From: Hirudinaria manillensis
Taxonomy: Eukaryota > Annelida > Clitellata > Hirudinida > Hirudinidae
Direction of reading: 5' to 3'
Assembly: GCA_034509925.1 (NCBI GenBank)
Contig: CM067529.1
Location: 10,151,001 to 10,215,000 of the forward strand
DNA length: 64,000 bases
In this document: positions 6,738 to 31,360 of the stretch, piece by piece
Position numbering within the stretch: position 1 is the first letter of the stretch
Layout of the letters: every line of letters starts with the position of its first letter
Translations under genes and position numbers: made by a program
The notes under the pieces: model-generated
The model's input: the letters and a program-made list of their open reading frames with translations, nothing else
What the model was told of the DNA's origin: nothing
Databases searched by the model: none

Positions 6738-6980
6738 AAAGGGTTCAGAGTTGACCTCTTCCCAATAGAAGTTGGCGCAAGGGGCGTAGTCGGCAAGTCG
6801 ACTTACGCTTTCCTCACGAAAATAGGCCTATCTAGCCGAGAAAGAACGAAGACGATGACAAAGATGTCGGAAGCGGCGGAGGCAGCTTCGTTCTGGATCT
6901 GGCAAATGAGAGGCAAGGAAACATCTTCGGATGCCATAGCGAAAGGACCGGAGAAAGCCGCCGATCTCCGGTCAGAATAA
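6738..6980 (+). pseudogene. 5'-truncated retrotransposon ORF, left end of array
   Basis: Identical to the last 80 codons plus stop of the full ORF (residues 1136-1215). The junction with unrelated AT-rich DNA falls exactly at the first base of codon 1136 (flank ...atatatc, then aaagggttc). It lacks RT and most of the endonuclease domain, so it cannot be active. The 3' UTR continues unbroken into the first complete copy. Confidence 0.93.
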
Positions 6981-7304
6981 ATCCACCAAAGTAGTTCATC
7001 GCCCGAGAGGCGCGGAGCCGGTGACGGAAATGTCTGTTACCGCGCGCCGCTGCAAAGAAAATTTAAAGCCCAAGTCGATACAGTTGGGCGGCAGGGATGA
7101 CGGAAAGAAGGCCACTGAGAGTCATTGGGGCTAGGTGGCGTCGCTTCAGCGACTGAGTGCAGCGACGAAAGAAGCCAATGAGAGCTTTCAGTAGTCGCTC
7201 CAGTCTGGCACGTGATGGCATAAAGAGGCCAATGAGAGCCTTCCAAAGCCTAAGCTTCGAGTCCGCACAATGGAAACCGACAGGGACATCCGGCTGATCA
7301 CCGG
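6981..7304 (+). promoter_or_regulatory. Joined 3' UTR / 5' UTR of the element, with stem-loops and a triple repeat
   Basis: The same 324-base block recurs before every copy (add multiples of 3,972). Visible structure: a G/C-rich arm pair GGCGCGG ... CCGCGCGCC (about 7009-7048); GCCCAA ... TTGGGC (7068-7089); GTCGC-TTCA-GCGAC (7140-7153); three imperfect repeats with core AAAGA(A)GGCCAaTGAGAG at about 7104, 7167 and 7222; and ATCCGG-N7-CCGGAT (7288-7306), whose 3' arm covers the first two bases of the ATG. In related elements the 3' UTR is bound by the RT and the 5' end may form a ribozyme, so these folds are candidate processing, translation or priming signals. The border between the two UTRs cannot be placed from this sequence. 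Confidence 0.6.
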
Positions 7305-10300
7305 ATGCGGCCCACCCCCGGAGAACGTCAGGGGTTTCAAAGGGCCGAAACGTTCGAAGATGGGGGACCTTCTCTGAGGATCCCTGTCGGAAAGCTCCGA
7401 GGAGGAGTTTCCAGCATCTATACCACGGCAATGGCCATTTGGCACTCGGGAATAGACCGAGGGACAACCAGGAGAGCCTGGTGGCGACCTGGAAAGACAG
7501 GTGACGTCTCGGAAAGACGAGGTCGCGATTGGGCTAGCGACCCGCGCGATAAAACGACCGCTACTTCACCGGACTACGAAATATGCCCCCATGGTCCCAG
7601 CCGAAAGGAGGGGGAGAATGACGGACCATCAATGGACTCAAGGCTTGACCTGGCTACCAACAGACTTCCGAGTACGACTAACGCCCCGGACAATGGCATG
7701 TCTGGTAGCAGATGCGTGTGCGGAAGAGCGTTCGCGACCGAAAGGGGACTCAAGATCCACCGATCCAAGACAAATTGCGGGTGCAAGGCACAGAGACAGC
7801 GTACTACCGCGAAGGTGCGGGTAGATAAAACGCCGGACGACACCGGACCGGAGTCACACCACAGTTCCGCGTGTGTCCGAGTCTCATGCCCAGGACAAGA
7901 CCCCCCGAGAGCTAGGATCAGGTTCCCTCGAGGAAGCGATAAGGAAAGCTGGTCAGGACTGGATGAGGAGCTGAAGCGAGGGCTGAAGAAAGTCCTGAAG
8001 GATGGATCAGTGAAGTCCTTCAGCGACTTCATTTACGACAAATGTGTCGGAAAGTTTGGGGTCATCCCTGCAAAGGAACCTCAGAAGGTGCATGAATCCA
8101 GGCGACAGCGCGACATTAACCGTCTAAAGGGCGAGAAAAAGGCGCTTCGCCGACGGTGGAAAATGGCTAACGAAGATGAGAGAGAAGGACTCTCCGTCCT
8201 ATGGGAGGACGTTAAAAGACGTGTGAGGGACTTGCGCGGAGCTGAAAGAGCGCGGAAGAGGAAATACGAGAGGAGGAAAGCTATGAGAAGCTTCTTCAGC
8301 GATCCCTATAAGTATGGGAGATCGCTGTTAGATCCTCCAAAATCGGGTGTGCTTACTGTAGAGCAAGAAAAACTGGAGGAACACTTAGTCAGAACCTATA
8401 GTGACCTCCTCCAGCATGAGGCTCTTCAGGAAAGGCTGGACATTCCGGCGGTGCCGCTGCCAGCCAGCCCCTTTTGTATGGCGTCTCCTTCGCTCGAGGA
8501 GGTGAGAAGAGTCGTTAGAAAAGCGAGAAACCGCTCAGCGCCAGGACCCAATGGAGTTCCATATCTCCTGTACAAAAGATGCCCCAAGACACTATATCTG
8601 CTGTATTCCCTCGTCGAGGGGGCGTGGTCTTCCGCCACGATCCACGATGAGTGGAAAAAGGCAGAGGGCGTCTATATTCCAAAGGAGAAAGACTCCAGGG
8701 ATCTGAATCAATTCAGACCCATATCACTGCTGAATGTAGAGGGGAAGATATTCTTCTCCATAATGGCATCGAGGCTCACAGAGTTTGTGATGGCTAACCA
8801 GTACGTTGACATATCTGTCCAAAAGGGAGGAGTTCCAGGTGTACCTGGTTGCATCGAACACACCTCCATGATATGGGAGGCGATCCAGAGGGCCAGGAGG
8901 GGCCGGTTGAGTCTGTACGTAGTGTGGCTGGACCTAGCAAACGCATATGGGTCGGTGCCGCATCAACTCTTGTGGAAGACGTTGGAGGCACACCATGTGC
9001 CTCAGCCCGTTATCCGTATCCTCCAGGAATATTTTAACGGGTTCATGATGCGTTTCTCCACCCAAGCGTACACGACGAAATGGGTTCCTCTGCAGGTCGG
9101 GATAGCCATGGGGTGTGCGATCTCTCCGACCCTGTTCGTACTGGCGATGCAGATCCTACTGAAGGCAGTTGGGTCCGACATTCCAGAGGCGCACATTGGT
9201 AAGGGTGTGTATATGCCTCCAATAAAGGCATTCATGGACGACACCACCCTGATTATGAATAGGAAGCGAGTCGTTCAGGAAACCCTGGACAAGCTGGACG
9301 ACTTGCTAGGATGGTGTCGTATGGCCTTCAAACCTGCGAAGTCCAGGAGTCTCTCTTTGGTTAGAGGGAAAATTTGCAGGGACGCGTTCTTCGAGGTGGC
9401 GGGACAACGAATCCCCACAGTATCCGAGGAGCCTGTGAAGAGCCTAGGAAGGATGTTTGACGACTCGCTCACCGACAAGAGCATGAAGAACGCCATAGTC
9501 ACGCAAACCAGTAAGGGGCTGCAAGCGATCGAGGCGGCGCCGCTCCAGGGTCGTTTCAAAGTGTGGCTTTTGCAGTTTGTGCTCCTGCCCAGACTCCTTT
9601 GGCCTTTGACCATCTATGAGATTGGTCTATCGGCGGTCGAGGGGTTAGAGAGGAAAATCAATCGGCACACCAGGACATGGCTGGGTTTACCTCCAGCATT
9701 GTCGTCGGTTGCCCTCTACAGCAGGAGCGCGAGCCTTAGACTGCCACTTAGGTCCATCGTGGAGGAGTACAAACTCTCCAAAATCCGAACGCAGTGGATG
9801 CTCAATAACTCCGCGGACAACAGGATCCGTGAAGTTAATCCACTGCTCAGATCTGGAAAGAAGTTCCGAGCGCAGAAAGAGATCGACGAGTCAGTAAATG
9901 TACTGATGTTCGAAGAAGTGAGGGGTCCTATCCAGACAGACCGTCACGCAGTGGGATGGAACCACTTCCAAAAATGGTCCCAGGCCAGCTCATCGACCAG
10001 GGGTGCGATGATTGGCCAGGAGAGGAGGCGGAAAGAGGAACAAGATCGAGTCACAAAGGCCGTACAGCTAGCACAACAGGGTAAGTGGACAACTTGGGAG
10101 GATGTGATCCAACGGTCCCTTACCTGGAGCGACTTATGGAAGTTGTCTCCGCTCCGGCTGGCCTTTGCGGTAAGATCGATTTATGATCAGTTGCCTTCCA
10201 AGGACAATTTAAGGAGGTGGGGGTTAGTAGAAGACGGCAAATGTGGACTCTGCGACGGAGCCGAGACACTGCATCATGTGCTCAGCAACTGCACATACGC

Positions 10301-10952
10301 CCTTGCCCATGGTCGGTATACATGGCGACACAATCAGGTCCTTCGAGAAGTGTGTGAGGCCACCAAAGCAGCAGTAACCAAAGCAAACTCGCGCGTAATC
10401 TCCAAGCAGCGGAAGATTTACTTCCTGCGCGAGGGCCACGCACACCTCTGCAGAAAGCGATGTAAAACGCCAAGAAAGGACATCCTTGCAGAGGCAAACG
10501 ATTGGACAGTCGCAGCCGACTTAGAAGGAATGAGGCACTATCCCCAGGTGCTGATTGAGAGTGGCAAGAGGCCCGATATGGTGTTGATGTCACCGTCGTC
10601 AGATGCCATCATTTTGGTGGAGTTGACGGTCCCATGGGAGGACAGAATGCAATATAGCAATGCGCTGAAAGCGGAAAAGTATGCAGATCTGGCGGTGGAC
10701 CTGGAAGCGAAAGGGTTCAGAGTTGACCTCTTCCCAATAGAAGTTGGCGCAAGGGGCGTAGTCGGCAAGTCGACTTACGCTTTCCTCACGAAAATAGGCC
10801 TATCTAGCCGAGAAAGAACGAAGACGATGACAAAGATGTCGGAAGCGGCGGAGGCAGCTTCGTTCTGGATCTGGCAAATGAGAGGCAAGGAAACATCTTC
10901 GGATGCCATAGCGAAAGGACCGGAGAAAGCCGCCGATCTCCGGTCAGAATAA
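7305..10952 (+). CDS. Retrotransposon polyprotein, copy 1: zinc finger, reverse transcriptase, restriction-like endonuclease
   Basis: 1,215 residues. An N-terminal zinc finger of C-x-C ... H-x5-C form (C137, C139, H152, C158) is expected to bind target DNA. Basic segment 260-330. Reverse transcriptase about 400-720, with N-Q-F-R-P-I-S-L-L-N (468-477), first catalytic Asp in W-L-D-L-A-N-A-Y-G (D543), G-I-A-M-G-C-A-I-S-P (599-608) and the active-site F-M-D-D-T-T-L (D645/D646). Thumb-like region 720-900. CCHC knuckle C980-x2-C983-x7-H991-x4-C996. Restriction-like endonuclease with K-R-P-D-M-V (1088-1093) and V-E-L-T-V-P-W-E (1105-1112). This order is that of R2/Hero/NeSL-type elements, which nick DNA and prime reverse transcription at the nick. 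The start at 7305 is the first ATG after an in-frame stop at 7251-7253. All catalytic residues are present, so the copy looks competent. Confidence 0.96.
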   Translation: MRPTPGERQGFQRAETFEDGGPSLRIPVGKLRGGVSSIYTTAMAIWHSGIDRGTTRRAWWRPGKTGDVSERRGRDWASDPRDKTTATSPDYEICPHGPSRKEGENDGPSMDSRLDLATNRLPSTTNAPDNGMSGSRCVCGRAFATERGLKIHRSKTNCGCKAQRQRTTAKVRVDKTPDDTGPESHHSSACVRVSCPGQDPPRARIRFPRGSDKESWSGLDEELKRGLKKVLKDGSVKSFSDFIYDKCVGKFGVIPAKEPQKVHESRRQRDINRLKGEKKALRRRWKMANEDEREGLSVLWEDVKRRVRDLRGAERARKRKYERRKAMRSFFSDPYKYGRSLLDPPKSGVLTVEQEKLEEHLVRTYSDLLQHEALQERLDIPAVPLPASPFCMASPSLEEVRRVVRKARNRSAPGPNGVPYLLYKRCPKTLYLLYSLVEGAWSSATIHDEWKKAEGVYIPKEKDSRDLNQFRPISLLNVEGKIFFSIMASRLTEFVMANQYVDISVQKGGVPGVPGCIEHTSMIWEAIQRARRGRLSLYVVWLDLANAYGSVPHQLLWKTLEAHHVPQPVIRILQEYFNGFMMRFSTQAYTTKWVPLQVGIAMGCAISPTLFVLAMQILLKAVGSDIPEAHIGKGVYMPPIKAFMDDTTLIMNRKRVVQETLDKLDDLLGWCRMAFKPAKSRSLSLVRGKICRDAFFEVAGQRIPTVSEEPVKSLGRMFDDSLTDKSMKNAIVTQTSKGLQAIEAAPLQGRFKVWLLQFVLLPRLLWPLTIYEIGLSAVEGLERKINRHTRTWLGLPPALSSVALYSRSASLRLPLRSIVEEYKLSKIRTQWMLNNSADNRIREVNPLLRSGKKFRAQKEIDESVNVLMFEEVRGPIQTDRHAVGWNHFQKWSQASSSTRGAMIGQERRRKEEQDRVTKAVQLAQQGKWTTWEDVIQRSLTWSDLWKLSPLRLAFAVRSIYDQLPSKDNLRRWGLVEDGKCGLCDGAETLHHVLSNCTYALAHGRYTWRHNQVLREVCEATKAAVTKANSRVISKQRKIYFLREGHAHLCRKRCKTPRKDILAEANDWTVAADLEGMRHYPQVLIESGKRPDMVLMSPSSDAIILVELTVPWEDRMQYSNALKAEKYADLAVDLEAKGFRVDLFPIEVGARGVVGKSTYAFLTKIGLSSRERTKTMTKMSEAAEAASFWIWQMRGKETSSDAIAKGPEKAADLRSE

Positions 10953-11276
10953 ATCCACCAAAGTAGTTCATCGCCCGAGAGGCGCGGAGCCGGTGACGGA
11001 AATGTCTGTTACCGCGCGCCGCTGCAAAGAAAATTTAAAGCCCAAGTCGATACAGTTGGGCGGCAGGGATGACGGAAAGAAGGCCACTGAGAGTCATTGG
11101 GGCTAGGTGGCGTCGCTTCAGCGACTGAGTGCAGCGACGAAAGAAGCCAATGAGAGCTTTCAGTAGTCGCTCCAGTCTGGCACGTGATGGCATAAAGAGG
11201 CCAATGAGAGCCTTCCAAAGCCTAAGCTTCGAGTCCGCACAATGGAAACCGACAGGGACATCCGGCTGATCACCGG

Positions 11277-14200
11277 ATGCGGCCCACCCCCGGAGAACGT
11301 CAGGGGTTTCAAAGGGCCGAAACGTTCGAAGATGGGGGACCTTCTCTGAGGATCCCTGTCGGAAAGCTCCGAGGAGGAGTTTCCAGCATCTATACCACGG
11401 CAATGGCCATTTGGCACTCGGGAATAGACCGAGGGACAACCAGGAGAGCCTGGTGGCGACCTGGAAAGACAGGCGACGTCTCGGAAAGACGAGGTCGCGA
11501 TTGGGCTAGCGACCCGCGCGATAAAACGACCGCTACTTCACCGGACTACGAAATATGCCCCCATGGTCCCAGCCGAAAGGAGGGGGAGAATGACGGACCA
11601 TCAATGGACTCAAGGCTTGACCTGGCTACCAACAGACTTCCGAGTACGACTAACGCCCCGGACAATGGCATGTCTGGTAGCAGATGCGTGTGCGGAAGAG
11701 CGTTCGCGACCGAAAGGGGACTCAAGATCCACCGATCCAAGACAAATTGCGGGTGCAAGGCACAGAGACAGCGTACTACCGCGAAGGTGCGGGTAGATAA
11801 AACGCCGGACGACACCGGACCGGAGTCACACCACAGTTCCGCGTGTGTCCGAGTCTCATGCCCAGGACAAGACCCCCCGAGAGCTAGGATCAGGTTCCCT
11901 CGAGGAAGCGATAAGGAAAGCTGGTCAGGACTGGATGAGGAGCTGAAGCGAGGGCTGAAGAAAGTCCTGAAGGATGGATCAGTGAAGTCCTTCAGCGACT
12001 TCATTTACGACAAATGTGTCGGAAAGTTTGGGGTCATCCCTGCAAAGGAACCTCAGAAGGTGCATGAATCCAGGCGACAGCGCGACATTAACCGTCTAAA
12101 GGGCGAGAAAAAGGCGCTTCGCCGACGGTGGAAAATGGCTAACGAAGATGAGAGAGAAGGACTCTCCGTCCTATGGGAGGACGTTAAAAGACGTGTGAGG
12201 GACTTGCGCGGAGCTGAAAGAGCGCGGAAGAGGAAATACGAGAGGAGGAAAGCTATGAGAAGCTTCTTCAGCGATCCCTATAAGTATGGGAGATCGCTGT
12301 TAGATCCTCCAAAATCGGGTGTGCTTACTGTAGAGCAAGAAAAACTGGAGGAACACTTAGTCAGAACCTATAGTGACCTCCTCCAGCATGAGGCTCTTCA
12401 GGAAAGGCTGGACATTCCGGCGGTGCCGCTGCCAGCCAGCCCCTTTTGTATGGCGTCTCCTTCGCTCGAGGAGGTGAGAAGAGTCGTTAGAAAAGCGAGA
12501 AACCGCTCAGCGCCAGGACCCAATGGAGTTCCATATCTCCTGTACAAAAGATGCCCCAAGACACTATATCTGCTGTATTCCCTCGTCGAGGGGGCGTGGT
12601 CTTCCGCCACGATCCACGATGAGTGGAAAAAGGCAGAGGGCGTCTATATTCCAAAGGAGAAAGACTCCAGGGATCTGAATCAATTCAGACCCATATCACT
12701 GCTGAATGTAGAGGGGAAGATATTCTTCTCCATAATGGCATCGAGGCTCACAGAGTTTGTGATGGCTAACCAGTACGTTGACATATCTGTCCAAAAGGGA
12801 GGAGTTCCAGGTGTACCTGGTTGCATCGAACACACCTCCATGATATGGGAGGCGATCCAGAGGGCCAGGAGGGGCCGGTTGAGTCTGTACGTAGTGTGGC
12901 TGGACCTAGCAAACGCATATGGGTCGGTGCCGCATCAACTCTTGTGGAAGACGTTGGAGGCACACCATGTGCCTCAGCCCGTTATCCGTATCCTCCAGGA
13001 ATATTTTAACGGGTTCATGATGCGTTTCTCCACCCAAGCGTACACGACGAAATGGGTTCCTCTGCAGGTCGGGATAGCCATGGGGTGTGCGATCTCTCCG
13101 ACCCTGTTCGTACTGGCGATGCAGATCCTACTGAAGGCAGTTGGGTCCGACATTCCAGAGGCGCACATTGGTAAGGGTGTGTATATGCCTCCAATAAAGG
13201 CATTCATGGACGACACCACCCTGATTATGAATAGGAAGCGAGTCGTTCAGGAAACCCTGGACAAGCTGGACGACTTGCTAGGATGGTGTCGTATGGCCTT
13301 CAAACCTGCGAAGTCCAGGAGTCTCTCTTTGGTTAGAGGGAAAATTTGCAGGGACGCGTTCTTCGAGGTGGCGGGACAACGAATCCCCACAGTATCCGAG
13401 GAGCCTGTGAAGAGCCTAGGAAGGATGTTTGACGACTCGCTCACCGACAAGAGCATGAAGAACGCCATAGTCACGCAAACCAGTAAGGGGCTGCAAGCGA
13501 TCGAGGCGGCGCCGCTCCAGGGTCGTTTCAAAGTGTGGCTTTTGCAGTTTGTGCTCCTGCCCAGACTCCTTTGGCCTTTGACCATCTATGAGATTGGTCT
13601 ATCGGCGGTCGAGGGGTTAGAGAGGAAAATCAATCGGCACACCAGGACATGGCTGGGTTTACCTCCAGCATTGTCGTCGGTTGCCCTCTACAGCAGGAGC
13701 GCGAGCCTTAGACTGCCACTTAGGTCCATCGTGGAGGAGTACAAACTCTCCAAAATCCGAACGCAGTGGATGCTCAATAACTCCGCGGACAACAGGATCC
13801 GTGAAGTTAATCCACTGCTCAGATCTGGAAAGAAGTTCCGAGCGCAGAAAGAGATCGACGAGTCAGTAAATGTACTGATGTTCGAAGAAGTGAGGGGTCC
13901 TATCCAGACAGACCGTCACGCAGTGGGATGGAACCACTTCCAAAAATGGTCCCAGGCCAGCTCATCGACCAGGGGTGCGATGATTGGCCAGGAGAGGAGG
14001 CGGAAAGAGGAACAAGATCGAGTCACAAAGGCCGTACAGCTAGCACAACAGGGTAAGTGGACAACTTGGGAGGATGTGATCCAACGGTCCCTTACCTGGA
14101 GCGACTTATGGAAGTTGTCTCCGCTCCGGCTGGCCTTTGCGGTAAGATCGATTTATGATCAGTTGCCTTCCAAGGACAATTTAAGGAGGTGGGGGTTAGT

Positions 14201-14924
14201 AGAAGACGGCAAATGTGGACTCTGCGACGGAGCCGAGACACTGCATCATGTGCTCAGCAACTGCACATACGCCCTTGCCCATGGTCGGTATACATGGCGA
14301 CACAATCAGGTCCTTCGAGAAGTGTGTGAGGCCACCAAAGCAGCAGTAACCAAAGCAAACTCGCGCGTAATCTCCAAGCAGCGGAAGATTTACTTCCTGC
14401 GCGAGGGCCACGCACACCTCTGCAGAAAGCGATGTAAAACGCCAAGAAAGGACATCCTTGCAGAGGCAAACGATTGGACAGTCGCAGCCGACTTAGAAGG
14501 AATGAGGCACTATCCCCAGGTGCTGATTGAGAGTGGCAAGAGGCCCGATATGGTGTTGATGTCACCGTCGTCAGATGCCATCATTTTGGTGGAGTTGACG
14601 GTCCCATGGGAGGACAGAATGCAATATAGCAATGCGCTGAAAGCGGAAAAGTATGCAGATCTGGCGGTGGACCTGGAAGCGAAAGGGTTCAGAGTTGACC
14701 TCTTCCCAATAGAAGTTGGCGCAAGGGGCGTAGTCGGCAAGTCGACTTACGCTTTCCTCACGAAAATAGGCCTATCTAGCCGAGAAAGAACGAAGACGAT
14801 GACAAAGATGTCGGAAGCGGCGGAGGCAGCTTCGTTCTGGATCTGGCAAATGAGAGGCAAGGAAACATCTTCGGATGCCATAGCGAAAGGACCGGAGAAA
14901 GCCGCCGATCTCCGGTCAGAATAA
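11277..14924 (+). CDS. Retrotransposon polyprotein, copy 2
   Basis: Encodes the same protein as copy 1, residue for residue. It carries the one base change I found in the array: C at 11474 where the other copies have T. This is the third base of Gly66 and therefore silent. All zinc, RT (D543, D645, D646) and endonuclease motifs are intact. Confidence 0.96.
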   Translation: MRPTPGERQGFQRAETFEDGGPSLRIPVGKLRGGVSSIYTTAMAIWHSGIDRGTTRRAWWRPGKTGDVSERRGRDWASDPRDKTTATSPDYEICPHGPSRKEGENDGPSMDSRLDLATNRLPSTTNAPDNGMSGSRCVCGRAFATERGLKIHRSKTNCGCKAQRQRTTAKVRVDKTPDDTGPESHHSSACVRVSCPGQDPPRARIRFPRGSDKESWSGLDEELKRGLKKVLKDGSVKSFSDFIYDKCVGKFGVIPAKEPQKVHESRRQRDINRLKGEKKALRRRWKMANEDEREGLSVLWEDVKRRVRDLRGAERARKRKYERRKAMRSFFSDPYKYGRSLLDPPKSGVLTVEQEKLEEHLVRTYSDLLQHEALQERLDIPAVPLPASPFCMASPSLEEVRRVVRKARNRSAPGPNGVPYLLYKRCPKTLYLLYSLVEGAWSSATIHDEWKKAEGVYIPKEKDSRDLNQFRPISLLNVEGKIFFSIMASRLTEFVMANQYVDISVQKGGVPGVPGCIEHTSMIWEAIQRARRGRLSLYVVWLDLANAYGSVPHQLLWKTLEAHHVPQPVIRILQEYFNGFMMRFSTQAYTTKWVPLQVGIAMGCAISPTLFVLAMQILLKAVGSDIPEAHIGKGVYMPPIKAFMDDTTLIMNRKRVVQETLDKLDDLLGWCRMAFKPAKSRSLSLVRGKICRDAFFEVAGQRIPTVSEEPVKSLGRMFDDSLTDKSMKNAIVTQTSKGLQAIEAAPLQGRFKVWLLQFVLLPRLLWPLTIYEIGLSAVEGLERKINRHTRTWLGLPPALSSVALYSRSASLRLPLRSIVEEYKLSKIRTQWMLNNSADNRIREVNPLLRSGKKFRAQKEIDESVNVLMFEEVRGPIQTDRHAVGWNHFQKWSQASSSTRGAMIGQERRRKEEQDRVTKAVQLAQQGKWTTWEDVIQRSLTWSDLWKLSPLRLAFAVRSIYDQLPSKDNLRRWGLVEDGKCGLCDGAETLHHVLSNCTYALAHGRYTWRHNQVLREVCEATKAAVTKANSRVISKQRKIYFLREGHAHLCRKRCKTPRKDILAEANDWTVAADLEGMRHYPQVLIESGKRPDMVLMSPSSDAIILVELTVPWEDRMQYSNALKAEKYADLAVDLEAKGFRVDLFPIEVGARGVVGKSTYAFLTKIGLSSRERTKTMTKMSEAAEAASFWIWQMRGKETSSDAIAKGPEKAADLRSE

Positions 14925-15248
14925 ATCCACCAAAGTAGTTCATCGCCCGAGAGGCGCGGAGCCGGTGACGGAAATGTCTGTTACCGCGCGCCGCTGCAAA
15001 GAAAATTTAAAGCCCAAGTCGATACAGTTGGGCGGCAGGGATGACGGAAAGAAGGCCACTGAGAGTCATTGGGGCTAGGTGGCGTCGCTTCAGCGACTGA
15101 GTGCAGCGACGAAAGAAGCCAATGAGAGCTTTCAGTAGTCGCTCCAGTCTGGCACGTGATGGCATAAAGAGGCCAATGAGAGCCTTCCAAAGCCTAAGCT
15201 TCGAGTCCGCACAATGGAAACCGACAGGGACATCCGGCTGATCACCGG

Positions 15249-22200: not shown

Positions 22201-22868
22201 GCAACTGCACATACGCCCTTGCCCATGGTCGGTATACATGGCGACACAATCAGGTCCTTCGAGAAGTGTGTGAGGCCACCAAAGCAGCAGTAACCAAAGC
22301 AAACTCGCGCGTAATCTCCAAGCAGCGGAAGATTTACTTCCTGCGCGAGGGCCACGCACACCTCTGCAGAAAGCGATGTAAAACGCCAAGAAAGGACATC
22401 CTTGCAGAGGCAAACGATTGGACAGTCGCAGCCGACTTAGAAGGAATGAGGCACTATCCCCAGGTGCTGATTGAGAGTGGCAAGAGGCCCGATATGGTGT
22501 TGATGTCACCGTCGTCAGATGCCATCATTTTGGTGGAGTTGACGGTCCCATGGGAGGACAGAATGCAATATAGCAATGCGCTGAAAGCGGAAAAGTATGC
22601 AGATCTGGCGGTGGACCTGGAAGCGAAAGGGTTCAGAGTTGACCTCTTCCCAATAGAAGTTGGCGCAAGGGGCGTAGTCGGCAAGTCGACTTACGCTTTC
22701 CTCACGAAAATAGGCCTATCTAGCCGAGAAAGAACGAAGACGATGACAAAGATGTCGGAAGCGGCGGAGGCAGCTTCGTTCTGGATCTGGCAAATGAGAG
22801 GCAAGGAAACATCTTCGGATGCCATAGCGAAAGGACCGGAGAAAGCCGCCGATCTCCGGTCAGAATAA
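19221..22868 (+). CDS. Retrotransposon polyprotein, copy 4
   Basis: Full-length, intact and identical in protein sequence to copies 1 and 3. No insertion, stop or frameshift was seen. Confidence 0.96.
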   Translation: MRPTPGERQGFQRAETFEDGGPSLRIPVGKLRGGVSSIYTTAMAIWHSGIDRGTTRRAWWRPGKTGDVSERRGRDWASDPRDKTTATSPDYEICPHGPSRKEGENDGPSMDSRLDLATNRLPSTTNAPDNGMSGSRCVCGRAFATERGLKIHRSKTNCGCKAQRQRTTAKVRVDKTPDDTGPESHHSSACVRVSCPGQDPPRARIRFPRGSDKESWSGLDEELKRGLKKVLKDGSVKSFSDFIYDKCVGKFGVIPAKEPQKVHESRRQRDINRLKGEKKALRRRWKMANEDEREGLSVLWEDVKRRVRDLRGAERARKRKYERRKAMRSFFSDPYKYGRSLLDPPKSGVLTVEQEKLEEHLVRTYSDLLQHEALQERLDIPAVPLPASPFCMASPSLEEVRRVVRKARNRSAPGPNGVPYLLYKRCPKTLYLLYSLVEGAWSSATIHDEWKKAEGVYIPKEKDSRDLNQFRPISLLNVEGKIFFSIMASRLTEFVMANQYVDISVQKGGVPGVPGCIEHTSMIWEAIQRARRGRLSLYVVWLDLANAYGSVPHQLLWKTLEAHHVPQPVIRILQEYFNGFMMRFSTQAYTTKWVPLQVGIAMGCAISPTLFVLAMQILLKAVGSDIPEAHIGKGVYMPPIKAFMDDTTLIMNRKRVVQETLDKLDDLLGWCRMAFKPAKSRSLSLVRGKICRDAFFEVAGQRIPTVSEEPVKSLGRMFDDSLTDKSMKNAIVTQTSKGLQAIEAAPLQGRFKVWLLQFVLLPRLLWPLTIYEIGLSAVEGLERKINRHTRTWLGLPPALSSVALYSRSASLRLPLRSIVEEYKLSKIRTQWMLNNSADNRIREVNPLLRSGKKFRAQKEIDESVNVLMFEEVRGPIQTDRHAVGWNHFQKWSQASSSTRGAMIGQERRRKEEQDRVTKAVQLAQQGKWTTWEDVIQRSLTWSDLWKLSPLRLAFAVRSIYDQLPSKDNLRRWGLVEDGKCGLCDGAETLHHVLSNCTYALAHGRYTWRHNQVLREVCEATKAAVTKANSRVISKQRKIYFLREGHAHLCRKRCKTPRKDILAEANDWTVAADLEGMRHYPQVLIESGKRPDMVLMSPSSDAIILVELTVPWEDRMQYSNALKAEKYADLAVDLEAKGFRVDLFPIEVGARGVVGKSTYAFLTKIGLSSRERTKTMTKMSEAAEAASFWIWQMRGKETSSDAIAKGPEKAADLRSE

Positions 22869-23192
22869 ATCCACCAAAGTAGTTCATCGCCCGAGAGGCG
22901 CGGAGCCGGTGACGGAAATGTCTGTTACCGCGCGCCGCTGCAAAGAAAATTTAAAGCCCAAGTCGATACAGTTGGGCGGCAGGGATGACGGAAAGAAGGC
23001 CACTGAGAGTCATTGGGGCTAGGTGGCGTCGCTTCAGCGACTGAGTGCAGCGACGAAAGAAGCCAATGAGAGCTTTCAGTAGTCGCTCCAGTCTGGCACG
23101 TGATGGCATAAAGAGGCCAATGAGAGCCTTCCAAAGCCTAAGCTTCGAGTCCGCACAATGGAAACCGACAGGGACATCCGGCTGATCACCGG

Positions 23193-26100
23193 ATGCGGCC
23201 CACCCCCGGAGAACGTCAGGGGTTTCAAAGGGCCGAAACGTTCGAAGATGGGGGACCTTCTCTGAGGATCCCTGTCGGAAAGCTCCGAGGAGGAGTTTCC
23301 AGCATCTATACCACGGCAATGGCCATTTGGCACTCGGGAATAGACCGAGGGACAACCAGGAGAGCCTGGTGGCGACCTGGAAAGACAGGTGACGTCTCGG
23401 AAAGACGAGGTCGCGATTGGGCTAGCGACCCGCGCGATAAAACGACCGCTACTTCACCGGACTACGAAATATGCCCCCATGGTCCCAGCCGAAAGGAGGG
23501 GGAGAATGACGGACCATCAATGGACTCAAGGCTTGACCTGGCTACCAACAGACTTCCGAGTACGACTAACGCCCCGGACAATGGCATGTCTGGTAGCAGA
23601 TGCGTGTGCGGAAGAGCGTTCGCGACCGAAAGGGGACTCAAGATCCACCGATCCAAGACAAATTGCGGGTGCAAGGCACAGAGACAGCGTACTACCGCGA
23701 AGGTGCGGGTAGATAAAACGCCGGACGACACCGGACCGGAGTCACACCACAGTTCCGCGTGTGTCCGAGTCTCATGCCCAGGACAAGACCCCCCGAGAGC
23801 TAGGATCAGGTTCCCTCGAGGAAGCGATAAGGAAAGCTGGTCAGGACTGGATGAGGAGCTGAAGCGAGGGCTGAAGAAAGTCCTGAAGGATGGATCAGTG
23901 AAGTCCTTCAGCGACTTCATTTACGACAAATGTGTCGGAAAGTTTGGGGTCATCCCTGCAAAGGAACCTCAGAAGGTGCATGAATCCAGGCGACAGCGCG
24001 ACATTAACCGTCTAAAGGGCGAGAAAAAGGCGCTTCGCCGACGGTGGAAAATGGCTAACGAAGATGAGAGAGAAGGACTCTCCGTCCTATGGGAGGACGT
24101 TAAAAGACGTGTGAGGGACTTGCGCGGAGCTGAAAGAGCGCGGAAGAGGAAATACGAGAGGAGGAAAGCTATGAGAAGCTTCTTCAGCGATCCCTATAAG
24201 TATGGGAGATCGCTGTTAGATCCTCCAAAATCGGGTGTGCTTACTGTAGAGCAAGAAAAACTGGAGGAACACTTAGTCAGAACCTATAGTGACCTCCTCC
24301 AGCATGAGGCTCTTCAGGAAAGGCTGGACATTCCGGCGGTGCCGCTGCCAGCCAGCCCCTTTTGTATGGCGTCTCCTTCGCTCGAGGAGGTGAGAAGAGT
24401 CGTTAGAAAAGCGAGAAACCGCTCAGCGCCAGGACCCAATGGAGTTCCATATCTCCTGTACAAAAGATGCCCCAAGACACTATATCTGCTGTATTCCCTC
24501 GTCGAGGGGGCGTGGTCTTCCGCCACGATCCACGATGAGTGGAAAAAGGCAGAGGGCGTCTATATTCCAAAGGAGAAAGACTCCAGGGATCTGAATCAAT
24601 TCAGACCCATATCACTGCTGAATGTAGAGGGGAAGATATTCTTCTCCATAATGGCATCGAGGCTCACAGAGTTTGTGATGGCTAACCAGTACGTTGACAT
24701 ATCTGTCCAAAAGGGAGGAGTTCCAGGTGTACCTGGTTGCATCGAACACACCTCCATGATATGGGAGGCGATCCAGAGGGCCAGGAGGGGCCGGTTGAGT
24801 CTGTACGTAGTGTGGCTGGACCTAGCAAACGCATATGGGTCGGTGCCGCATCAACTCTTGTGGAAGACGTTGGAGGCACACCATGTGCCTCAGCCCGTTA
24901 TCCGTATCCTCCAGGAATATTTTAACGGGTTCATGATGCGTTTCTCCACCCAAGCGTACACGACGAAATGGGTTCCTCTGCAGGTCGGGATAGCCATGGG
25001 GTGTGCGATCTCTCCGACCCTGTTCGTACTGGCGATGCAGATCCTACTGAAGGCAGTTGGGTCCGACATTCCAGAGGCGCACATTGGTAAGGGTGTGTAT
25101 ATGCCTCCAATAAAGGCATTCATGGACGACACCACCCTGATTATGAATAGGAAGCGAGTCGTTCAGGAAACCCTGGACAAGCTGGACGACTTGCTAGGAT
25201 GGTGTCGTATGGCCTTCAAACCTGCGAAGTCCAGGAGTCTCTCTTTGGTTAGAGGGAAAATTTGCAGGGACGCGTTCTTCGAGGTGGCGGGACAACGAAT
25301 CCCCACAGTATCCGAGGAGCCTGTGAAGAGCCTAGGAAGGATGTTTGACGACTCGCTCACCGACAAGAGCATGAAGAACGCCATAGTCACGCAAACCAGT
25401 AAGGGGCTGCAAGCGATCGAGGCGGCGCCGCTCCAGGGTCGTTTCAAAGTGTGGCTTTTGCAGTTTGTGCTCCTGCCCAGACTCCTTTGGCCTTTGACCA
25501 TCTATGAGATTGGTCTATCGGCGGTCGAGGGGTTAGAGAGGAAAATCAATCGGCACACCAGGACATGGCTGGGTTTACCTCCAGCATTGTCGTCGGTTGC
25601 CCTCTACAGCAGGAGCGCGAGCCTTAGACTGCCACTTAGGTCCATCGTGGAGGAGTACAAACTCTCCAAAATCCGAACGCAGTGGATGCTCAATAACTCC
25701 GCGGACAACAGGATCCGTGAAGTTAATCCACTGCTCAGATCTGGAAAGAAGTTCCGAGCGCAGAAAGAGATCGACGAGTCAGTAAATGTACTGATGTTCG
25801 AAGAAGTGAGGGGTCCTATCCAGACAGACCGTCACGCAGTGGGATGGAACCACTTCCAAAAATGGTCCCAGGCCAGCTCATCGACCAGGGGTGCGATGAT
25901 TGGCCAGGAGAGGAGGCGGAAAGAGGAACAAGATCGAGTCACAAAGGCCGTACAGCTAGCACAACAGGGTAAGTGGACAACTTGGGAGGATGTGATCCAA
26001 CGGTCCCTTACCTGGAGCGACTTATGGAAGTTGTCTCCGCTCCGGCTGGCCTTTGCGGTAAGATCGATTTATGATCAGTTGCCTTCCAAGGACAATTTAA

Positions 26101-26840
26101 GGAGGTGGGGGTTAGTAGAAGACGGCAAATGTGGACTCTGCGACGGAGCCGAGACACTGCATCATGTGCTCAGCAACTGCACATACGCCCTTGCCCATGG
26201 TCGGTATACATGGCGACACAATCAGGTCCTTCGAGAAGTGTGTGAGGCCACCAAAGCAGCAGTAACCAAAGCAAACTCGCGCGTAATCTCCAAGCAGCGG
26301 AAGATTTACTTCCTGCGCGAGGGCCACGCACACCTCTGCAGAAAGCGATGTAAAACGCCAAGAAAGGACATCCTTGCAGAGGCAAACGATTGGACAGTCG
26401 CAGCCGACTTAGAAGGAATGAGGCACTATCCCCAGGTGCTGATTGAGAGTGGCAAGAGGCCCGATATGGTGTTGATGTCACCGTCGTCAGATGCCATCAT
26501 TTTGGTGGAGTTGACGGTCCCATGGGAGGACAGAATGCAATATAGCAATGCGCTGAAAGCGGAAAAGTATGCAGATCTGGCGGTGGACCTGGAAGCGAAA
26601 GGGTTCAGAGTTGACCTCTTCCCAATAGAAGTTGGCGCAAGGGGCGTAGTCGGCAAGTCGACTTACGCTTTCCTCACGAAAATAGGCCTATCTAGCCGAG
26701 AAAGAACGAAGACGATGACAAAGATGTCGGAAGCGGCGGAGGCAGCTTCGTTCTGGATCTGGCAAATGAGAGGCAAGGAAACATCTTCGGATGCCATAGC
26801 GAAAGGACCGGAGAAAGCCGCCGATCTCCGGTCAGAATAA
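23193..26840 (+). CDS. Retrotransposon polyprotein, copy 5
   Basis: Full-length and intact. The protein is identical to the other copies, and both flanking UTR blocks are complete. Confidence 0.96.
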   Translation: MRPTPGERQGFQRAETFEDGGPSLRIPVGKLRGGVSSIYTTAMAIWHSGIDRGTTRRAWWRPGKTGDVSERRGRDWASDPRDKTTATSPDYEICPHGPSRKEGENDGPSMDSRLDLATNRLPSTTNAPDNGMSGSRCVCGRAFATERGLKIHRSKTNCGCKAQRQRTTAKVRVDKTPDDTGPESHHSSACVRVSCPGQDPPRARIRFPRGSDKESWSGLDEELKRGLKKVLKDGSVKSFSDFIYDKCVGKFGVIPAKEPQKVHESRRQRDINRLKGEKKALRRRWKMANEDEREGLSVLWEDVKRRVRDLRGAERARKRKYERRKAMRSFFSDPYKYGRSLLDPPKSGVLTVEQEKLEEHLVRTYSDLLQHEALQERLDIPAVPLPASPFCMASPSLEEVRRVVRKARNRSAPGPNGVPYLLYKRCPKTLYLLYSLVEGAWSSATIHDEWKKAEGVYIPKEKDSRDLNQFRPISLLNVEGKIFFSIMASRLTEFVMANQYVDISVQKGGVPGVPGCIEHTSMIWEAIQRARRGRLSLYVVWLDLANAYGSVPHQLLWKTLEAHHVPQPVIRILQEYFNGFMMRFSTQAYTTKWVPLQVGIAMGCAISPTLFVLAMQILLKAVGSDIPEAHIGKGVYMPPIKAFMDDTTLIMNRKRVVQETLDKLDDLLGWCRMAFKPAKSRSLSLVRGKICRDAFFEVAGQRIPTVSEEPVKSLGRMFDDSLTDKSMKNAIVTQTSKGLQAIEAAPLQGRFKVWLLQFVLLPRLLWPLTIYEIGLSAVEGLERKINRHTRTWLGLPPALSSVALYSRSASLRLPLRSIVEEYKLSKIRTQWMLNNSADNRIREVNPLLRSGKKFRAQKEIDESVNVLMFEEVRGPIQTDRHAVGWNHFQKWSQASSSTRGAMIGQERRRKEEQDRVTKAVQLAQQGKWTTWEDVIQRSLTWSDLWKLSPLRLAFAVRSIYDQLPSKDNLRRWGLVEDGKCGLCDGAETLHHVLSNCTYALAHGRYTWRHNQVLREVCEATKAAVTKANSRVISKQRKIYFLREGHAHLCRKRCKTPRKDILAEANDWTVAADLEGMRHYPQVLIESGKRPDMVLMSPSSDAIILVELTVPWEDRMQYSNALKAEKYADLAVDLEAKGFRVDLFPIEVGARGVVGKSTYAFLTKIGLSSRERTKTMTKMSEAAEAASFWIWQMRGKETSSDAIAKGPEKAADLRSE

Positions 26841-27164
26841 ATCCACCAAAGTAGTTCATCGCCCGAGAGGCGCGGAGCCGGTGACGGAAATGTCTGTTAC
26901 CGCGCGCCGCTGCAAAGAAAATTTAAAGCCCAAGTCGATACAGTTGGGCGGCAGGGATGACGGAAAGAAGGCCACTGAGAGTCATTGGGGCTAGGTGGCG
27001 TCGCTTCAGCGACTGAGTGCAGCGACGAAAGAAGCCAATGAGAGCTTTCAGTAGTCGCTCCAGTCTGGCACGTGATGGCATAAAGAGGCCAATGAGAGCC
27101 TTCCAAAGCCTAAGCTTCGAGTCCGCACAATGGAAACCGACAGGGACATCCGGCTGATCACCGG

Positions 27165-30100
27165 ATGCGGCCCACCCCCGGAGAACGTCAGGGGTTTCAA
27201 AGGGCCGAAACGTTCGAAGATGGGGGACCTTCTCTGAGGATCCCTGTCGGAAAGCTCCGAGGAGGAGTTTCCAGCATCTATACCACGGCAATGGCCATTT
27301 GGCACTCGGGAATAGACCGAGGGACAACCAGGAGAGCCTGGTGGCGACCTGGAAAGACAGGTGACGTCTCGGAAAGACGAGGTCGCGATTGGGCTAGCGA
27401 CCCGCGCGATAAAACGACCGCTACTTCACCGGACTACGAAATATGCCCCCATGGTCCCAGCCGAAAGGAGGGGGAGAATGACGGACCATCAATGGACTCA
27501 AGGCTTGACCTGGCTACCAACAGACTTCCGAGTACGACTAACGCCCCGGACAATGGCATGTCTGGTAGCAGATGCGTGTGCGGAAGAGCGTTCGCGACCG
27601 AAAGGGGACTCAAGATCCACCGATCCAAGACAAATTGCGGGTGCAAGGCACAGAGACAGCGTACTACCGCGAAGGTGCGGGTAGATAAAACGCCGGACGA
27701 CACCGGACCGGAGTCACACCACAGTTCCGCGTGTGTCCGAGTCTCATGCCCAGGACAAGACCCCCCGAGAGCTAGGATCAGGTTCCCTCGAGGAAGCGAT
27801 AAGGAAAGCTGGTCAGGACTGGATGAGGAGCTGAAGCGAGGGCTGAAGAAAGTCCTGAAGGATGGATCAGTGAAGTCCTTCAGCGACTTCATTTACGACA
27901 AATGTGTCGGAAAGTTTGGGGTCATCCCTGCAAAGGAACCTCAGAAGGTGCATGAATCCAGGCGACAGCGCGACATTAACCGTCTAAAGGGCGAGAAAAA
28001 GGCGCTTCGCCGACGGTGGAAAATGGCTAACGAAGATGAGAGAGAAGGACTCTCCGTCCTATGGGAGGACGTTAAAAGACGTGTGAGGGACTTGCGCGGA
28101 GCTGAAAGAGCGCGGAAGAGGAAATACGAGAGGAGGAAAGCTATGAGAAGCTTCTTCAGCGATCCCTATAAGTATGGGAGATCGCTGTTAGATCCTCCAA
28201 AATCGGGTGTGCTTACTGTAGAGCAAGAAAAACTGGAGGAACACTTAGTCAGAACCTATAGTGACCTCCTCCAGCATGAGGCTCTTCAGGAAAGGCTGGA
28301 CATTCCGGCGGTGCCGCTGCCAGCCAGCCCCTTTTGTATGGCGTCTCCTTCGCTCGAGGAGGTGAGAAGAGTCGTTAGAAAAGCGAGAAACCGCTCAGCG
28401 CCAGGACCCAATGGAGTTCCATATCTCCTGTACAAAAGATGCCCCAAGACACTATATCTGCTGTATTCCCTCGTCGAGGGGGCGTGGTCTTCCGCCACGA
28501 TCCACGATGAGTGGAAAAAGGCAGAGGGCGTCTATATTCCAAAGGAGAAAGACTCCAGGGATCTGAATCAATTCAGACCCATATCACTGCTGAATGTAGA
28601 GGGGAAGATATTCTTCTCCATAATGGCATCGAGGCTCACAGAGTTTGTGATGGCTAACCAGTACGTTGACATATCTGTCCAAAAGGGAGGAGTTCCAGGT
28701 GTACCTGGTTGCATCGAACACACCTCCATGATATGGGAGGCGATCCAGAGGGCCAGGAGGGGCCGGTTGAGTCTGTACGTAGTGTGGCTGGACCTAGCAA
28801 ACGCATATGGGTCGGTGCCGCATCAACTCTTGTGGAAGACGTTGGAGGCACACCATGTGCCTCAGCCCGTTATCCGTATCCTCCAGGAATATTTTAACGG
28901 GTTCATGATGCGTTTCTCCACCCAAGCGTACACGACGAAATGGGTTCCTCTGCAGGTCGGGATAGCCATGGGGTGTGCGATCTCTCCGACCCTGTTCGTA
29001 CTGGCGATGCAGATCCTACTGAAGGCAGTTGGGTCCGACATTCCAGAGGCGCACATTGGTAAGGGTGTGTATATGCCTCCAATAAAGGCATTCATGGACG
29101 ACACCACCCTGATTATGAATAGGAAGCGAGTCGTTCAGGAAACCCTGGACAAGCTGGACGACTTGCTAGGATGGTGTCGTATGGCCTTCAAACCTGCGAA
29201 GTCCAGGAGTCTCTCTTTGGTTAGAGGGAAAATTTGCAGGGACGCGTTCTTCGAGGTGGCGGGACAACGAATCCCCACAGTATCCGAGGAGCCTGTGAAG
29301 AGCCTAGGAAGGATGTTTGACGACTCGCTCACCGACAAGAGCATGAAGAACGCCATAGTCACGCAAACCAGTAAGGGGCTGCAAGCGATCGAGGCGGCGC
29401 CGCTCCAGGGTCGTTTCAAAGTGTGGCTTTTGCAGTTTGTGCTCCTGCCCAGACTCCTTTGGCCTTTGACCATCTATGAGATTGGTCTATCGGCGGTCGA
29501 GGGGTTAGAGAGGAAAATCAATCGGCACACCAGGACATGGCTGGGTTTACCTCCAGCATTGTCGTCGGTTGCCCTCTACAGCAGGAGCGCGAGCCTTAGA
29601 CTGCCACTTAGGTCCATCGTGGAGGAGTACAAACTCTCCAAAATCCGAACGCAGTGGATGCTCAATAACTCCGCGGACAACAGGATCCGTGAAGTTAATC
29701 CACTGCTCAGATCTGGAAAGAAGTTCCGAGCGCAGAAAGAGATCGACGAGTCAGTAAATGTACTGATGTTCGAAGAAGTGAGGGGTCCTATCCAGACAGA
29801 CCGTCACGCAGTGGGATGGAACCACTTCCAAAAATGGTCCCAGGCCAGCTCATCGACCAGGGGTGCGATGATTGGCCAGGAGAGGAGGCGGAAAGAGGAA
29901 CAAGATCGAGTCACAAAGGCCGTACAGCTAGCACAACAGGGTAAGTGGACAACTTGGGAGGATGTGATCCAACGGTCCCTTACCTGGAGCGACTTATGGA
30001 AGTTGTCTCCGCTCCGGCTGGCCTTTGCGGTAAGATCGATTTATGATCAGTTGCCTTCCAAGGACAATTTAAGGAGGTGGGGGTTAGTAGAAGACGGCAA

Positions 30101-30812
30101 ATGTGGACTCTGCGACGGAGCCGAGACACTGCATCATGTGCTCAGCAACTGCACATACGCCCTTGCCCATGGTCGGTATACATGGCGACACAATCAGGTC
30201 CTTCGAGAAGTGTGTGAGGCCACCAAAGCAGCAGTAACCAAAGCAAACTCGCGCGTAATCTCCAAGCAGCGGAAGATTTACTTCCTGCGCGAGGGCCACG
30301 CACACCTCTGCAGAAAGCGATGTAAAACGCCAAGAAAGGACATCCTTGCAGAGGCAAACGATTGGACAGTCGCAGCCGACTTAGAAGGAATGAGGCACTA
30401 TCCCCAGGTGCTGATTGAGAGTGGCAAGAGGCCCGATATGGTGTTGATGTCACCGTCGTCAGATGCCATCATTTTGGTGGAGTTGACGGTCCCATGGGAG
30501 GACAGAATGCAATATAGCAATGCGCTGAAAGCGGAAAAGTATGCAGATCTGGCGGTGGACCTGGAAGCGAAAGGGTTCAGAGTTGACCTCTTCCCAATAG
30601 AAGTTGGCGCAAGGGGCGTAGTCGGCAAGTCGACTTACGCTTTCCTCACGAAAATAGGCCTATCTAGCCGAGAAAGAACGAAGACGATGACAAAGATGTC
30701 GGAAGCGGCGGAGGCAGCTTCGTTCTGGATCTGGCAAATGAGAGGCAAGGAAACATCTTCGGATGCCATAGCGAAAGGACCGGAGAAAGCCGCCGATCTC
30801 CGGTCAGAATAA
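27165..30812 (+). CDS. Retrotransposon polyprotein, copy 6 (last complete copy)
   Basis: Full-length and intact. It is followed by the usual UTR block and then by the broken seventh start at 31137. If the array is real, the 3' end of this copy reads into another 5' UTR and not into genomic DNA. Confidence 0.96.
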   Translation: MRPTPGERQGFQRAETFEDGGPSLRIPVGKLRGGVSSIYTTAMAIWHSGIDRGTTRRAWWRPGKTGDVSERRGRDWASDPRDKTTATSPDYEICPHGPSRKEGENDGPSMDSRLDLATNRLPSTTNAPDNGMSGSRCVCGRAFATERGLKIHRSKTNCGCKAQRQRTTAKVRVDKTPDDTGPESHHSSACVRVSCPGQDPPRARIRFPRGSDKESWSGLDEELKRGLKKVLKDGSVKSFSDFIYDKCVGKFGVIPAKEPQKVHESRRQRDINRLKGEKKALRRRWKMANEDEREGLSVLWEDVKRRVRDLRGAERARKRKYERRKAMRSFFSDPYKYGRSLLDPPKSGVLTVEQEKLEEHLVRTYSDLLQHEALQERLDIPAVPLPASPFCMASPSLEEVRRVVRKARNRSAPGPNGVPYLLYKRCPKTLYLLYSLVEGAWSSATIHDEWKKAEGVYIPKEKDSRDLNQFRPISLLNVEGKIFFSIMASRLTEFVMANQYVDISVQKGGVPGVPGCIEHTSMIWEAIQRARRGRLSLYVVWLDLANAYGSVPHQLLWKTLEAHHVPQPVIRILQEYFNGFMMRFSTQAYTTKWVPLQVGIAMGCAISPTLFVLAMQILLKAVGSDIPEAHIGKGVYMPPIKAFMDDTTLIMNRKRVVQETLDKLDDLLGWCRMAFKPAKSRSLSLVRGKICRDAFFEVAGQRIPTVSEEPVKSLGRMFDDSLTDKSMKNAIVTQTSKGLQAIEAAPLQGRFKVWLLQFVLLPRLLWPLTIYEIGLSAVEGLERKINRHTRTWLGLPPALSSVALYSRSASLRLPLRSIVEEYKLSKIRTQWMLNNSADNRIREVNPLLRSGKKFRAQKEIDESVNVLMFEEVRGPIQTDRHAVGWNHFQKWSQASSSTRGAMIGQERRRKEEQDRVTKAVQLAQQGKWTTWEDVIQRSLTWSDLWKLSPLRLAFAVRSIYDQLPSKDNLRRWGLVEDGKCGLCDGAETLHHVLSNCTYALAHGRYTWRHNQVLREVCEATKAAVTKANSRVISKQRKIYFLREGHAHLCRKRCKTPRKDILAEANDWTVAADLEGMRHYPQVLIESGKRPDMVLMSPSSDAIILVELTVPWEDRMQYSNALKAEKYADLAVDLEAKGFRVDLFPIEVGARGVVGKSTYAFLTKIGLSSRERTKTMTKMSEAAEAASFWIWQMRGKETSSDAIAKGPEKAADLRSE

Positions 30813-31136
30813 ATCCACCAAAGTAGTTCATCGCCCGAGAGGCGCGGAGCCGGTGACGGAAATGTCTGTTACCGCGCGCCGCTGCAAAGAAAATTTAAAG
30901 CCCAAGTCGATACAGTTGGGCGGCAGGGATGACGGAAAGAAGGCCACTGAGAGTCATTGGGGCTAGGTGGCGTCGCTTCAGCGACTGAGTGCAGCGACGA
31001 AAGAAGCCAATGAGAGCTTTCAGTAGTCGCTCCAGTCTGGCACGTGATGGCATAAAGAGGCCAATGAGAGCCTTCCAAAGCCTAAGCTTCGAGTCCGCAC
31101 AATGGAAACCGACAGGGACATCCGGCTGATCACCGG

Positions 31137-31265
31137 ATGCGGCCCACCCCCGGAGAACGTCAGGGGTTTCAAAGGGCCGAAACGTTCGAAGATGGGGGAC
31201 CTTCTCTGAGGATCCCTGTCGGAAAGCTCCGAGGAGGAGTTTCCAGCATCTGTATTTGTACGTAA
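31137..31265 (+). pseudogene. 3'-truncated retrotransposon ORF, right end of array
   Basis: Matches the first 38 codons of the element to 31251, then switches to unrelated AT-rich DNA (tgtatttgtacg) and meets a stop at 31263-31265. This is the 5' end of an element without its 3' end. It is the reverse of the usual non-LTR truncation, in which the 5' end is lost. Confidence 0.92.
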
Positions 31266-31360
31266 CTAATGTTCTCTGAAAGTTGCTTTGAATTTTTGAC
31301 ACAACATAGTACTCGATTAGACGAATGTTATTATATAAATATTACAACTATAACAGGTAA

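Follow-up and report, generated by a model that had tools for sequence, protein, structure and literature searches.

In the textbook picture, a retrotransposon without long terminal repeats (a non-LTR retrotransposon) copies one RNA between fixed 5' and 3' ends and leaves a single insertion. Penelope-like elements occur in tandem or partial-tandem form, with pseudo-LTRs thought to hold the promoter, a multi-copy mRNA and internal initiation (PMC11167929; cited in part, as are the papers that follow). HeT-A carries a sense promoter in its 3' untranslated region (UTR) as well as in its 5' UTR, and in Giardia the elements GilM and GilT make up head-to-tail arrays at telomeres, with 5'-truncated copies (PMC5537684). 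Among elements with a restriction-like endonuclease (RLE), Utopia-1_NVit occasionally shows tandem copies in U2 genes, and many members of the HERO clade are non-specific or microsatellite-targeted (PMC4640811). R2Tg reportedly initiates reverse transcription by binding a pseudoknotted element of the 3' UTR (PMC12222951). Here we describe a 64,000-nucleotide stretch of the Hirudinaria manillensis genome (assembly GCA_034509925.1, contig CM067529.1; C4:10151001-10215000 in our contig numbering, hereafter the window), which contains a tandem array of an R2-like RLE non-LTR retrotransposon. Comparison of its genomic copies indicates that this element probably propagates from an RNA running through the boundary between one unit and the next. 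The best reading is that the template would be multimeric, terminally redundant or circular, and would give rise to "partial tandem" insertions of the Penelope-like kind.

The array is a forward-strand tandem insertion at 6738..31251, spanning 24,514 bp with an exact period of 3,972 bp and composed of a 682-bp leading piece and six complete units (682 + 6 x 3,972 bp). Positions within a unit are numbered from U1 (window 7420) to U3972 (window 11391). A single difference was observed across all copies, a T to C change at 11474 (U83 of the second complete unit); it falls on a third codon base, and the proteins of all six units are therefore identical. An earlier sequence-only reading of the window had reported six open reading frames (ORFs) of 1,215 codons with identical proteins, in one orientation and at this period. 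This was confirmed, the change at 11474 being the sole difference, for ORFs starting at 7305, 11277, 15249, 19221, 23193 and 27165, all on the forward strand. One substitution in 24.5 kb also agrees with its description of a young element with an intact reading frame. The 324-base gap that it gave between stop codon and next ATG is correct, while the label "joint UTR" is misleading, since the 3' end of the element (7419, 11391 and the equivalent positions) lies 115 bases inside the following "ORF". The GC content is about 53-55% in the array versus roughly 19-37% over most of the remaining window. Within the 148.4-Mb genome of 23 contigs, the array is internal to C4, at 10.15 of 13.64 Mb. An Rfam search of the window matched no rRNA, tRNA or other family. 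A telomeric or ribosomal DNA (rDNA) array was ruled out by these negatives together with the location well inside the contig, in line with the earlier statement that neither kind of repeat is visible.

Copies elsewhere in the genome define the ends of the element. A genome protein search gave 41 matches, including a second array of period 3,972 on C2. The copy lists hold the best-scoring 40 of 81-514 candidates (514 for the 3' UTR search), so that proportions are rough and frequencies biased, and most insertions were located through the 3' UTR, a route that copies lacking it would escape. Alignments of 3' ends were listed if they reached U3960, and among the other fetched 3' sides none stops earlier. 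All 38 insertions with the 3' side read finish at U3967-U3972. The right end of the array (31251) is thus the canonical 3' end of the element, and with this end fixed the stretch at the far left, 6738-7419, can be recognized as a copy truncated on its 5' side. Random termination of the array within the ORF, a candidate explanation, was dropped after the 3' ends of other copies had been read.

The U3972/U1 boundary is crossed in 17 insertions, the window array and 16 further loci, so the array is as unusual as had been claimed and the phenomenon is wider. Fifteen of these insertions contain the joint: the window array, the C2 multimer, C4:7403439, C9:3034391, C7:5366745, C6:6645285, four on C1 (one of them, C1:8850520, older, at 93%), three on C8 and two on C11. 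The other two are C13:6056275, from a related third family, which crosses by 48 bases, and C6:6895523, which crosses by merely 6 bases, possibly by chance. In the joints read, units abut without added bases, with a single base substituted at C11:3354. Leading partial copies could be mapped in 16 of the 17 and measure 6, 48, 49, 72, 101, 169, 207, 266, 315, 412, 497, 682, 1431, 2134, 3234 and 3372 nt; a redundant state of 48-497 nt plus a unit is found at ten loci besides the window. A further 26 insertions begin within the unit, from U33 to U3433. None of the 42 mapped 5' ends lies at U1, the nearest being U33 and a point 6 nt ahead of U1. The best 40 of the 514 3' UTR matches represent 26 insertions, 9 of which are multimers.

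These counts exclude C11:3952457, C3:9222159 and C1:8850520, with unmapped 5' ends, and C10:2914467, C4:8212718, C2:4302385, C10:3425616, C12:3224627 and C2:8743102, with unmapped 3' ends, as well as the unmapped C13:3732735. The inverted copy adjoining C12:4282274 is among the 38 3' ends and not in the 5'-end count, the inverted 962-nt piece at C2:4048891 was treated as belonging to the C2 insertion, and C6:6436375-6461651 was counted as a single insertion. At three loci (L001, L047 and L097), the final 6-7 bases (AGCATC, AGTATC, CAGCATC) are repeated at some 3' joints; slippage repeats of a similar kind occur in other non-LTR elements. Out-of-order pieces, which are probable template switches, were observed at the 5' ends of two truncated copies: 61 nt of U2981-3041 joined to U373 at C6:8235200 (L080), and 76 nt of U2256-2331 near U3271 at C11:3377998 (L029).

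The same organization was found in a sister family, 63% identical in the genome protein search, which has three copies at a period of 3,849 on C9. The joint is present in all four sister loci examined (the C9 array, C9:2991244, C3:7705902 and C7:2285901), and the three units of the C9 array are preceded by about 2.8 kb of a partial unit. The three sister 3' ends read all fall within (TA)n or (ATATT)n, and each of five copies scored has one in-frame TAA. Judged from these genomic copies, insertion in the form of terminally redundant multimers seems to be a general property of both of these related families.

Units of one insertion mostly carry the variants of that insertion, which would fit a single template. 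In the dimer at C1:8772129, 8 of 8 variants over U2034-U3972 are common to both copies, as is the variant at 804. Variants 701 and 2264 of the C2 multimer occur in all units read across those positions, and a 2-nt deletion and variant 3712 are shared between the copies at C9:3030563. The C2 multimer measures 3,234 + 3 x 3,972 nt and has, on its left side, a 75-nt piece and 962 nt of inverted 3' sequence. A perfect target duplication of 22 nt flanks the whole, where 280 mismatched flank pairs reached a maximum score of 12. At L026, positions 1435-3439 (C2:4048825-4050829), the 75-nt sense piece and the inverted 962-nt piece adjoin the array inside the duplication, an appearance that would fit priming of reverse transcription by both strands of the target. 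Over 35 insertions, the target duplication exceeds all 280 mismatched controls in six, with lengths of 22, 52, 59, 67 and 118 nt and a sixth that lies in a microsatellite and is not informative; two tie the control maximum of 12, and 27, including the window array, are without a clear duplication.

At the window, the two flanks run as one stretch at 17 of 19 fetched paralogous loci, without a target duplication and, in the commonest form, with a change of at most about one base at the insertion point. The window array is best read as an insertion of this element into a host repeat. That repeat, which supplies both target flanks, occurs at many places in the genome, often twice about 355-370 bp apart. 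Site-specific targeting was considered for this family and rejected: although the window copy sits in a widespread host repeat, the flanks at different loci are unrelated and mostly AT-rich. Because of the 22-nt duplication around the C2 multimer and the clean break in the host repeat at the window, the evidence is that the multimers inserted as units; multiplication in place, one of the two options offered in the sequence-only reading, is not supported.

Taken together, the constant 3' end, the boundary-crossing insertions and the shared variants make internal initiation on a joint-spanning RNA the simplest reading. The template would be multimeric or terminally redundant and, in its simplest form, would begin within the 3' portion of an upstream copy, from where it would run through at least one downstream copy; a circular RNA is the alternative form. 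The element protein would bind the pseudoknot just ahead of U3972, target-primed reverse transcription would start internally at U3972/U1, and synthesis would pass through up to several units before aborting and leaving a truncated leading copy. This leading copy would supply the downstream copy with a 5' region, and tandem insertions would thereby produce further tandem insertions, the same proposal as has been made for Penelope-like elements and HeT-A. The six units in the window would reflect either one long run or unequal exchange from a smaller redundant insertion, and later unequal exchange may account for part of the six-fold copy number. The base following the 3' end is A, like U1, in 29 of 38 insertions (p 1.5e-6; background 37%), which fits a template extending beyond U3972. 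In addition, 11 of the 16 leading partials fall below 500 nt, which suggests that the RNA begins within the 3' portion of an upstream copy.

Both ends of the unit show RNA features. The predicted structure of the 3'-terminal domain keeps 33 of its 34 pairs in the sister family, with 4 pairs changed on both sides; in slid versions of the structure 29-47% of cells pair versus 98.5%, with zero double changes. At the 5' end, U1 to about U110 forms hairpins, and U1-U119 folds more stably than shuffled sequences (z -3.2). No HDV-like (hepatitis delta virus) or hammerhead ribozyme was found by Rfam to E 5 over 10700-14700, a search that a divergent ribozyme could escape.

Several observations weigh against a joint-spanning template or temper the evidence for it. 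Besides six shared variants, the C7 insertion has two that differ between units; at C8:4084876 and C11:4667704 one base each differs between the partial and the full copy, and the leading copy on C2 carries four changes, clustered in a 25-base stretch near U1466-U1490, all of them absent from the full copy in L008. The window array showed neither a target duplication in the flank test nor a private variant that would trace all units to a single event, and the six-fold state is therefore indistinguishable from the outcome of unequal exchange. The A after the 3' end may also reflect a preference of the endonuclease. Of the 24 insertions that end at U3972, 12 have T in second position, as at U2, but only 4 have A in third position, as at U3, and pairing beyond one or two bases is therefore not seen. 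The short partials also fit a reverse transcriptase that stops at structured RNA, and they do not separate a linear from a circular template. The pseudoknot counts derive from two sequences, with the structure drawn with both in view, and shuffles match the number of double changes in 23 of 500 cases. Finally, the long template RNA is deduced from genomic copies, and a promoter in the 3' region would be hypothetical.

Among the other explanations, rolling-circle reverse transcription of a circular RNA is unlikely, even if it would account for the constant joints, the shared variants, the lack of a 5' end at U1 and lengths of up to 6.2 units. A smooth fall-off poorly explains the excess of partials below 500 nt (with mean lengths of 1,000-4,000 nt assumed for the fall-off, p ranges from 0.02 to 1.6e-5), although structured leader RNA could, and the ribozyme search in Rfam to E 5 was negative. 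Recombination alone, in which a single ordinary insertion was later multiplied through unequal exchange or tandem duplication, would agree with the near identity of the array units, and a segmental tandem duplication is evident in the same genome: C6:6436375-6461651 (L110, L111) holds six U33-truncated copies at a spacing of 4,980-4,983 that carry host DNA, with the same host flank at both copies read. This evident ordinary duplication contrasts with the 3,972 arrays, which are without any host DNA. Recombination would moreover require a terminally redundant starting insertion, leaving the ten redundant states outside the window unexplained, and multimers occur at many loci and in related families; we regard it as quite unlikely.

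In end-to-end template jumping, the reverse transcriptase would reach U1 of a monomer RNA and jump to the 3' end of another RNA. The R2 reverse transcriptase is reportedly capable of such jumps, and the out-of-order joints on C6 and C11 are of a related kind, yet the unit joints are read without added bases, the units of one insertion mostly share variants, and a monomer RNA should yield insertions ending at U1, which none of the 42 does, so that this route appears distinctly improbable. The same absence of monomers starting at U1 (0 of 42 mapped) argues against repeated self-targeting, in which new copies would land precisely at the 5' terminus of a copy already present. For this idea there is the precedent of Utopia-1_NVit, sometimes tandem in U2 genes (PMC4640811, in part); between units there are no extra bases, flanks elsewhere are unrelated AT-rich DNA, and we consider it very improbable. 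An assembly artefact, the objection raised with the sequence-only reading, is highly unlikely, because many separate loci and a second family share the structure with differing lengths and flanks. The exact copy number of the array does rest on the assembly, as 24.5 kb with one internal difference is hard for reads of 15-20 kb to span. Propagation from an RNA that continues across the unit boundary therefore remains our preferred reading.

The protein supports the assignment of the element to the RLE type made in the sequence-only reading. Pfam matched RVT_1 (4e-24) and zf-RVT, the closest PDB matches are chains of the R2 retrotransposon (3.1e-28), and a PD-x14-E motif and a C-terminal zinc knuckle, both read by eye, are kept in the sister family, which is 62% identical over the C-terminus. 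A C-terminal profile matched the corresponding part of R2 weakly, with E 0.17-0.19 for two chains, behind an unrelated chain at 0.14; no endonuclease family and no GIY-YIG domain was among the Pfam matches, and an AlphaFold model of the C-terminus (pLDDT 47) was not used. The tentative endonuclease assignment, read from the sequence, thus rests on the motif and its position. NCBIfam gave merely distant reverse transcriptase (RT) families with scores under their cut-offs, and viral, genome-contig, plasmid and phage collections gave no useful relatives; a plasmid-borne bacterial RT matched at 25.7% identity. Synonymous variants make up 13 of 26 versus 28% expected, which was counted as coding selection.

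The start of the protein is less straightforward. After the first ATG, the ORF has further in-frame ATGs at U12, U210 and U276; in our reading of the alignments, the sister family has no ATG at these three places. From U1 to about U110 the sequence is kept in three families, and indels break the reading frame there. In a translated search the sister resembles amino acids (aa) 5-31 and 39-97 of the element protein, in frames other than its RT frame and with stops in one piece, so that a conserved RNA fits better than a conserved protein. Since this region is conserved in sequence and not in frame, the first 110-130 codons are probably a non-coding leader, the true protein would begin later, and 1,215 codons would overstate its length. 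The coordinates of these features are collected in Table 1.

Table 1. Features of the tandem array and of its first complete unit, in window coordinates unless given in amino acids
Feature	Position	Strand	Remark
Left target flank	6692..6737	+	part of dispersed host repeat
Leading 5'-truncated copy	6738..7419	+	U3291-U3972, 682 nt
ORF of unit 1	7305..10952	+	1,215 codons counted from the first ATG, which sits in the preceding copy
RT domain	aa 458-715	+	domain of the unit-1 ORF
zf-RVT domain	aa 940-1000	+	domain of the unit-1 ORF
RLE motif PD-x14-E	about aa 1090-1106	+	read by eye
Complete unit 1 (U1-U3972)	7420..11391	+	later units start at 11392, 15364, 19336, 23308 and 27280
3' UTR of unit 1	10953..11391	+	439 nt
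3'-terminal RNA domain	11249..11362	+	H-type pseudoknot with a hairpin and a closing stem; 34 predicted pairs in 5 helices
Unit junction U3972/U1	11391..11392	+	joint between units 1 and 2
5' leader containing short hairpins that have GGAAAGAC-type loops	11416..11498	+	sequence conserved, frame not, in three families
Complete unit 6	27280..31251	+	right end is the canonical 3' end of the element
Right target flank	31252..31338	+	joins the left flank directly at empty paralogous sites

Several other features were identified in the window. An intronless RPB2 gene of 1,153 aa lies at 3082-6543; the genome contains five intact intronless copies (three on C4 and two on C2), 98-100% identical, as well as RPB2 genes that are split, apparently by introns, at C13:1120395 and C2:8018368, with 43-82% piecewise identity to the intronless copy. 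The RPB2 protein scores highest with mammalian chains, ahead of yeast ones, in keeping with an animal genome. Related repeat pieces stand on both sides of RPB2 and the array, pairing 2097-2191 with 31364-31458 and 2326-2439 with 31775-31886. Farther downstream, the pentamer TAATA is repeated 91 times in near-perfect copies at 40652-41106, and a tandem duplication of about 1,448 nt (59633-61079 and 61398-62845, 97% identical) carries an RRM-protein ORF of about 400 aa in each copy.

Compared with the systems introduced above, the element combines traits of several. It resembles Penelope-like elements in its partial-tandem insertions of the pseudo-LTR type and its AT-rich targets, as far as the cited part of PMC11167929 describes them, and differs from them in its R2-type RT and RLE motif, in the lack of GIY-YIG among its Pfam matches and in the lack of a hammerhead ribozyme at the joint (Rfam to E 5). 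With the RLE non-LTR group it shares a constant 3' end and variable 5' truncation, as in target-primed reverse transcription, and with R2 and its relatives an RT that matches R2 best and a pseudoknotted 3' end as in the 3' UTR of R2Tg (PMC12222951, in part). Unlike R2 proper, it is not in 28S rDNA (no Rfam match in the window, unrelated flanks elsewhere), no HDV-like 5' ribozyme was found (Rfam to E 5, 10700-14700), and its insertions pass the unit boundary. The non-specific targets here, and (TA)n or (ATATT)n in the sister family, recall HERO, a likeness by target and not by RT phylogeny; the cited part of PMC4640811 does not mention tandem insertions for that clade. Head-to-tail arrays are shared with HeT-A/TAHRE and GilM/GilT, and 5'-truncated copies with the Giardia elements, as described in part in PMC5537684; unlike these telomeric systems, the present array is internal, 10.15 Mb into a 13.64-Mb contig.

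In the literature covered, mostly outside subscription journals (titles and abstract openings) and apart from Repbase, no dispersed partial-tandem RLE elements were found, and close analogues exist. A broader proposal, to which we give slightly less than even chances, is that a dispersed RLE element has independently reached a life cycle like that of Penelope or HeT-A. The functional unit would then be a terminally redundant multimer, with the upstream 3' region acting as promoter and leader, the joint RNA as template, and pseudoknot-started synthesis running through several units, up to 24.5 kb per event. If confirmed, insertion as multimers would provide a second, separate system for studying how tandem retrotransposons begin transcription, pick their 3' start and stop. 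It would also show one direct way in which a retrotransposon can give rise to a satellite-like array and, on a more speculative note, point to an enzyme able to write long repeated inserts. The two related families described here would insert as stretches of a continuous multimer and so combine an R2-type enzyme with a layout hitherto tied to Penelope-like and telomeric elements.

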